Assembly (NCBI RefSeq): GCF_012222305.1
Contig: NZ_CP035730.1
Span: 2,321,501 to 2,385,500 of the forward strand
Reading direction: 5' to 3'
Source: Sulfolobus sp. S-194
GTDB taxonomy: Archaea; Thermoproteota; Thermoprotei_A; Sulfolobales; Sulfolobaceae
DNA length: 64,000 bases
Shown: piece by piece, positions 27,776 through 28,389 of the stretch
Position numbering within the stretch: position 1 is the first letter of the stretch
How the letters are laid out: each line of letters begins with the position of its first letter
Position numbers and translations under genes: made by a program
Notes under the pieces: generated by a model
The model's database searches: none
Seen by the model: only the letters and a program-made list of their open reading frames with translations
Told to the model about the DNA's origin: nothing

Positions 27776-28064
27776 CGAAGTATTTTCTTATAATCTCTTT
27801 TATTTTATCTATGTTTTTTATAAAAGCGTAAAGTATAGCTATTAGAAGATAAGAAGAAGTAATTTCGTACTCTCCACTACTTTGAACAGAAAAACTCTCG
27901 AATCTAACTGAATTTATCTTAACTGTTTTATCCTCTACTAGGGAAATGATATTATAGGGTAAGTCTATTATAATAACGTTAACATTTTCATTTGATATAC
28001 CTTCCTTAAGCAATATCTCATTAGCTATTTTAGCTATACAACCTAAATCTTTACAGTTTATCAT
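27732..28064 (-). CDS. Hypothetical protein, 110 aa
   Basis: MINCKDLGCIAKIANEILLKE starts an alpha/beta protein with VNVIIIDLPYNIISLVE and a helical second half (SSYLLIAILYAFIKNIDKIKE). No catalytic motif is visible and I do not recognise the family. It is followed by, and overlaps, a 103-aa hypothetical gene. It is the first gene downstream of the MITE-containing spacer. Confidence 0.5.
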   Translation of the reverse strand: MINCKDLGCIAKIANEILLKEGISNENVNVIIIDLPYNIISLVEDKTVKINSVRFESFSVQSSGEYEITSSYLLIAILYAFIKNIDKIKEIIRKYFGENSVAFKLIDIML

Positions 28065-28245
28065 CAGGCGAACAACCCATCATCACTTTTTCAGTTAAGG
28101 TTGGTTTCCTCATTAATTACATAATTCTTATTAATCATTTTTAAGTATTTACTTAAGAGCTGGCCTATCGTTAATTAAGCTAGGACTACTAATCTTTAGG
28201 GATCGCACATCTCACTGAACGATTGTTGAAATAAAACTTCGGGGG

Positions 28246-28253
28246 ATTAGACA
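28246..28253 (+). repeat. Target-site duplication, left copy (ATTAGACA)
   Basis: This 8-bp sequence is identical to 28382-28389. The two copies directly abut the outer ends of a perfect 10-bp inverted repeat, as expected after transposition. Confidence 0.8.
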
Positions 28254-28381
28254 GATAGTGTCGCTATTAAGCTATTTATATTTCTATATTAAAATAAGGT
28301 TTACAATAACTATATCTTGGTATCTTCTCTTGCTAGAGATCAACTCAATTAATGAAATTATATACAAATGACGACACTATC
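28254..28381. mobile_element. 128-bp MITE-like non-autonomous transposable element
   Basis: The element begins GATAGTGTCG and ends CGACACTATC, a perfect 10-bp terminal inverted repeat. It is flanked by identical 8-bp direct repeats ATTAGACA. The interior is AT-rich with no reading frame, so any transposase must come from elsewhere. Eight-bp duplications occur in IS1-type and some IS5-type families, but I cannot assign a family from the ends alone. It sits in non-coding DNA between a hypothetical gene and the tungstate/molybdate permease. Confidence 0.8.
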
Positions 28382-28389
28382 ATTAGACA
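28382..28389 (+). repeat. Target-site duplication, right copy (ATTAGACA)
   Basis: Identical to 28246-28253 and directly abuts the right end of the inverted repeat. Confidence 0.8.

Follow-up and report, generated by a model that had tools for sequence, protein, structure and literature searches.

The stretch of DNA analysed here (the window, 64,000 nucleotides) covers positions 2,321,501 to 2,385,500 of contig C1 in the 2,789,526-bp genome of Sulfolobus sp. S-194 (G000). Between two genes of its minus strand lies a short element bordered by identical octamers, and the features at the locus, in window coordinates, are as follows:

28064 (start), minus strand: ORF of 110 aa without Pfam match
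28246 to 28253, plus strand: left copy of the target duplication, ATTAGACA
28254 to 28381, plus strand: MITE of 128 bp, a non-autonomous IS1-family element (41 own-genome matches; 49 copies aligned and placed in a tree)
28254 to 28288, plus strand: left end in common with the parent, aligning at 89-91% over 35 bp in blastn comparisons with four copies of the IS1-family element
28289 to 28354, plus strand: middle part without match to the parent IS (short matches of chance length only)
28355 to 28381, plus strand: right end in common with the IS (27 bp at 89% against an own-genome IS copy)
28382 to 28389, plus strand: right copy of the target duplication, ATTAGACA
28454 (end), minus strand: permease gene (Pfam PF00528)

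The structure described in the original prediction was found again in all its parts: a perfect terminal inverted repeat of 10 bp (GATAGTGTCG at 28254-28263, CGACACTATC at 28372-28381), an exact 8-bp target duplication on both sides, and a length of 128 bp without a reading frame (no ORF of at least 50 aa is contained in the element). The inverted repeat of this copy reaches 15 bp at 87%; the family consensus has a perfect 15-mer here (GATAGTGTCGTCATT), from which the window copy departs by two substitutions, CT for TC at 28264-28265 (repeat positions 11 and 12). The left end includes a TATA-like TTTATATT, which in the IS stands before the transposase ATG; it was probably inherited from there and might act as a promoter. 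The suggestion that the element supplies promoter or terminator sequences gained no support, and no terminator-like site was found. The neighbours, labelled a hypothetical gene and wtpB in that prediction, are an ORF without Pfam match and a PF00528 permease.

Copies of the element and its parent insertion sequences

A search for further copies gave 41 matches in the own genome (2.79 Mb) at 81-100% identity (E values from 2e-70 to 4e-26), and the left-end pattern, with at most three mismatches, occurred at 48 genome sites against none for the reversed control, so that chance is excluded. Pairing of both ends in the fetched loci yielded 49 full copies, 13 of which, the window copy among them, have 8 or 9 bp perfectly duplicated immediately at their ends; about two thirds of the copies are without a duplication directly at the core. 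Relatives of the element were detected in 13-14 of the 60 genomes searched, in Sulfolobales. The copies of two congeners (G002 and G003) are about 70-77% identical, whereas two genomes of another genus (L032 in G028 and L033 in G030) have one copy each, 88% identical to the window copy and with its own perfect duplication; as these are closer than the congener copies, the sequences suggest a transfer of the MITE between genera. The exact left-end pattern matched only two other records across the genome collection, the element was matched in neither the plasmid nor the phage collection, and we did not find the family described in the literature searched.

The original prediction had also proposed looking for a transposase-bearing element with the same termini, and such elements exist: IS1-family insertion sequences of 764-801 bp share the left 35 bp and the right 15-27 bp with the MITE (the last 15 bp of its right end are identical in other IS copies by blastn), and the MITE middle of about 65 bp matches no IS read. 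Target duplications of 8-9 bp border parent elements and many of the MITE copies. An IS with matching ends and an intact single frame of 242 aa is present in G028 (L079:1144-1933), IS1-family elements that agree with it in the left 35 bp and the right end in G011 (L085 and L082), and a same-end IS with an intact duplication (AAATTTTC) in G016 (L052). The L079 protein matched the NCBIfam model transpos_IS1 at 2e-28 with 99.7 bits, 0.3 bit under the cutoff of 100, and its IS1/IS1595 zinc domain scored above the cutoff; the catalytic model PF03400 was not matched in the Pfam scan.

The own-genome IS with matching ends (981058-981845) has a transposase broken by stops, the remaining pieces of such elements are fragments, and no intact partner transposase with matching ends was found in this genome. 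The longer IS1-like frames of the genome belong to an element with different ends; one of them, 1288427-1289089, was considered as a partner and rejected (it lies in a 1174-bp element with the ends GGGGATGTTCTC, and shares about 31% identity with the L079 transposase). As every transposase gene with such ends found in the own genome is broken, the MITE family appears to be stranded there now.

These data, together with the absence of the element at the congener locus (see below), bear out the original description of a transposed MITE-like element, and the MITE in the window is well preserved and of an ordinary kind. Very probably its ends are those of an IS1-family element, its middle is not transposase sequence, and it was moved here by an IS1-type transposase acting in trans. 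In this scheme an IS1-family insertion sequence would have supplied both ends, an IS1-type transposase would recognise the 15-bp ends in trans, move the copy to the window site and make an 8-bp staggered cut in the target, and the stagger would leave ATTAGACA on both sides. The derivation of both ends from the IS would also agree with an IS1-family insertion that decayed or was internally deleted at this very locus and was never amplified as a separate MITE; this is most improbable, because about 49 copies, inserted independently and with duplications of their own, agree in the 128-bp length and in the non-IS middle, which indicates that the short form itself multiplied.

Age of the insertion and its genomic surroundings

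The orthologous intergenic region of three congeners (G003, G002 and G001) is without the 128 bp, so the insertion is most likely younger than the split from G003 and G002. The joined flanks align through the site at 72-73% in these two genomes (the neighbouring permease gene is 92-93% identical in them), flanks too diverged for the single pre-insertion octamer to be legible. The event had been called recent on the strength of its undecayed duplication, which is borne out only in part: 16 bp of intact duplication is a weak clock, and 6 of 128 positions in the window copy depart from the consensus (two of them in the inverted repeat), which makes it the fifth closest of the 49 copies (median 14). 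We regard it as fairly young.

Of the 48 copies examined, none falls within an ORF of at least 120 aa, as against 67% of random positions in the window, a result in keeping with purging or with gene avoidance. The same distribution would be expected of a conserved, non-mobile intergenic repeat or structured RNA gene with paired ends that merely resembles a transposon, and the element does fold better than its shuffles (z of -3.6 on the plus and -2.4 on the minus strand), largely because of these ends. We consider this highly unlikely: 13 copies have exact target duplications of different sequence, the ends are common to transposase-bearing IS, the element is absent at the orthologous site, and an RNA gene was rejected as Rfam gave no match inside the element.

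About 140 bp from the MITE, a segment of the minus strand (window 28061-28116) resembles a C/D-box sRNA (boxes C' GTGATGA, D' and D CTGA; Rfam snoPyro_CD 19.5 bits, below the cutoff of 45), and is nearly unchanged in G001, G002 and G003 while the adjoining sequence has diverged.

Tips matching IS6-family ends at the boundaries of sister copies

About half of the sister copies, many of them without a duplication at the core, carry a 9-bp tip (GAGTGTGGA, GTGTGTGTC or variants) exactly at the boundary, reading inward; the window copy has none. Matches to GAGTGTGGA of at least 6 of 9 positions were found in 29 of 96 flanks (0.6 expected), and those of at least 7 of 9 concentrate at distance 0, with 15 there and no more than 2 at each of the other distances; with the second variant included, 26 of 96 flanks reach at least 7 of 9 (0.2 expected). 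An unrelated IS6-family group (ISC774/ISSte1) begins its inverted repeat with these 9 bp, and its end sequence is GAGTGTGGACAACAATTTTG in the ISC774 group; an ISC774-type transposase gene lies between GAGTGTGGACAACAATTT ends (308 bits, cutoff 200), and ISSte1 has the inverted repeat GTGTGTGTCCAACAAT and an 8-bp duplication (PMC4390865). The same tips flank MITE copies and whole IS elements in other genera. A MITE of 215 bp with IS6-group ends (GAGTGTGGA...) is also present in G000:C1 (2076262-2076476, 2200438-2200650, 2027855-2028064 and 1226935-1227143), its copies being 97-98% identical, one with the 8-bp duplication GTAAAAGT and two with an IS1-type MITE abutting one end.

The tipped copies are of two kinds. 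Copies of the first kind are embedded in the terminus of an IS6-group element, with a duplication that belongs to the tip; in the second, tips stand on both sides and a duplication of 7-9 bp lies outside them:

1364285, first kind: duplication AGTGTGTC
1991306, first kind: duplication with one mismatch
L163, first kind: duplication AGTGTGGA
L167, first kind: duplication TCCACACT
52965, second kind: outer duplication CTTCACTCT
L154, second kind: outer duplication CTAGGTAT
L182/L191, second kind: outer duplication AAATAGTT
L079, second kind: outer duplication CACTTTA

The site of 52965 is empty in two relatives; for L154, which is also doubly tipped, an ortholog search found no flanks that were contiguous. 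L182 (G028) and L191 (G016), of one genus, share a 534-bp tipped element together with its flanks and the duplication AAATAGTT, and represent an old shared insertion.

The second kind, with outer duplications in all four cases and an empty orthologous site for 52965, is what would be seen if the tips were genuine outer ends of the IS1-type element, which could then be cut at two positions nine bases apart. We hold this to be rather unlikely, since the tips coincide with the opening 9 bp of the inverted repeat in the IS6 group (ISC774-type; ISSte1) and the first kind shows copies inserted into IS6-group ends with a duplication. On the core tree, furthermore, the tip state changes 9 times compared to 9.6 for shuffled labels (the tree is weakly resolved); as it does not track the phylogeny of the MITE, the target seems to be the source of the tips, rather than descent along with the core.

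Our preferred reading is targeted insertion into IS6-group ends, the second kind then losing the IS6 body through a reaction at the tip on the other side. Adjacent deletions are a known property of IS1, and one locus (315430-315729: a tip, the MITE, then a truncated IS6-group MITE) looks like a partial deletion of the IS6 body. As a tentative and more far-reaching proposal, the IS1-type element and its MITE may home on the 9-bp ends of the IS6 group and, in a second reaction at the tip on the other side, replace the body. The products would be hybrids with an IS1-type core between two IS6 tips; they would retain the target duplication of the IS6 element, and either transposase may then move them. 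Tip-tip palindromes were considered as ready targets for the doubly tipped copies and rejected, none being found in the genome with 0-30 bp between tips.

Another recurrent boundary sequence, CTATATAGGA, in some copies with ACTAATAAACC beside it, abuts MITE or IS (flanks of 1362648, 1382923, 1946389 and 2028065 in G000, and of L109 and L181); it is possibly the end of a third element.

Comparison with known mobile elements

The MITE families SM1-SM4 of Sulfolobus solfataricus have 25-44 copies each (Redder 2001, as given in PMC10969869), and S. islandicus has SM3A (164 bp) and SMN1 (320 bp; PMC3718332); SM families whose partner transposase is broken have been reported (SM3A/ISC1058). The SM families resemble the window MITE in being short and ORF-free, with inverted repeats, small target duplications and Sulfolobales hosts, and are mobilised in trans, as is probable for the present family. 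Compared by description, the window MITE differs from SM3A and SMN1 in its length of 128 bp and its IS1-family partner. The parent agrees with the IS1 family in its size and its 8-9-bp duplication; its transposase is a candidate IS1-type protein, the L079 protein being a single frame of 242 aa that matches transpos_IS1 just short of the NCBIfam cutoff and leaves PF03400 unmatched. With the ISC774/ISSte1 group and the 215-bp MITE the family has an 8-bp duplication in common, and many of its sister copies the 9-bp tip; the window copy is without a tip, and core and transposase are unrelated.

Insertion sequences of the IS4321/IS5075 type target the terminal inverted repeats of other transposons. 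The sister copies inserted at the terminal repeat of an unrelated transposon resemble them, but the transposase is of another family and the habit is a preference and not a strict specificity, many copies, including the one in the window, lying at unrelated sites.

What emerges is an IS1-type MITE family of high copy number in a Sulfolobales archaeon, along with its parent element and its likely stranded state. The target habit of the sister copies is unusual and a more interesting lead than the window MITE; it suggests that two transposon families without relation to each other are linked through targeting.
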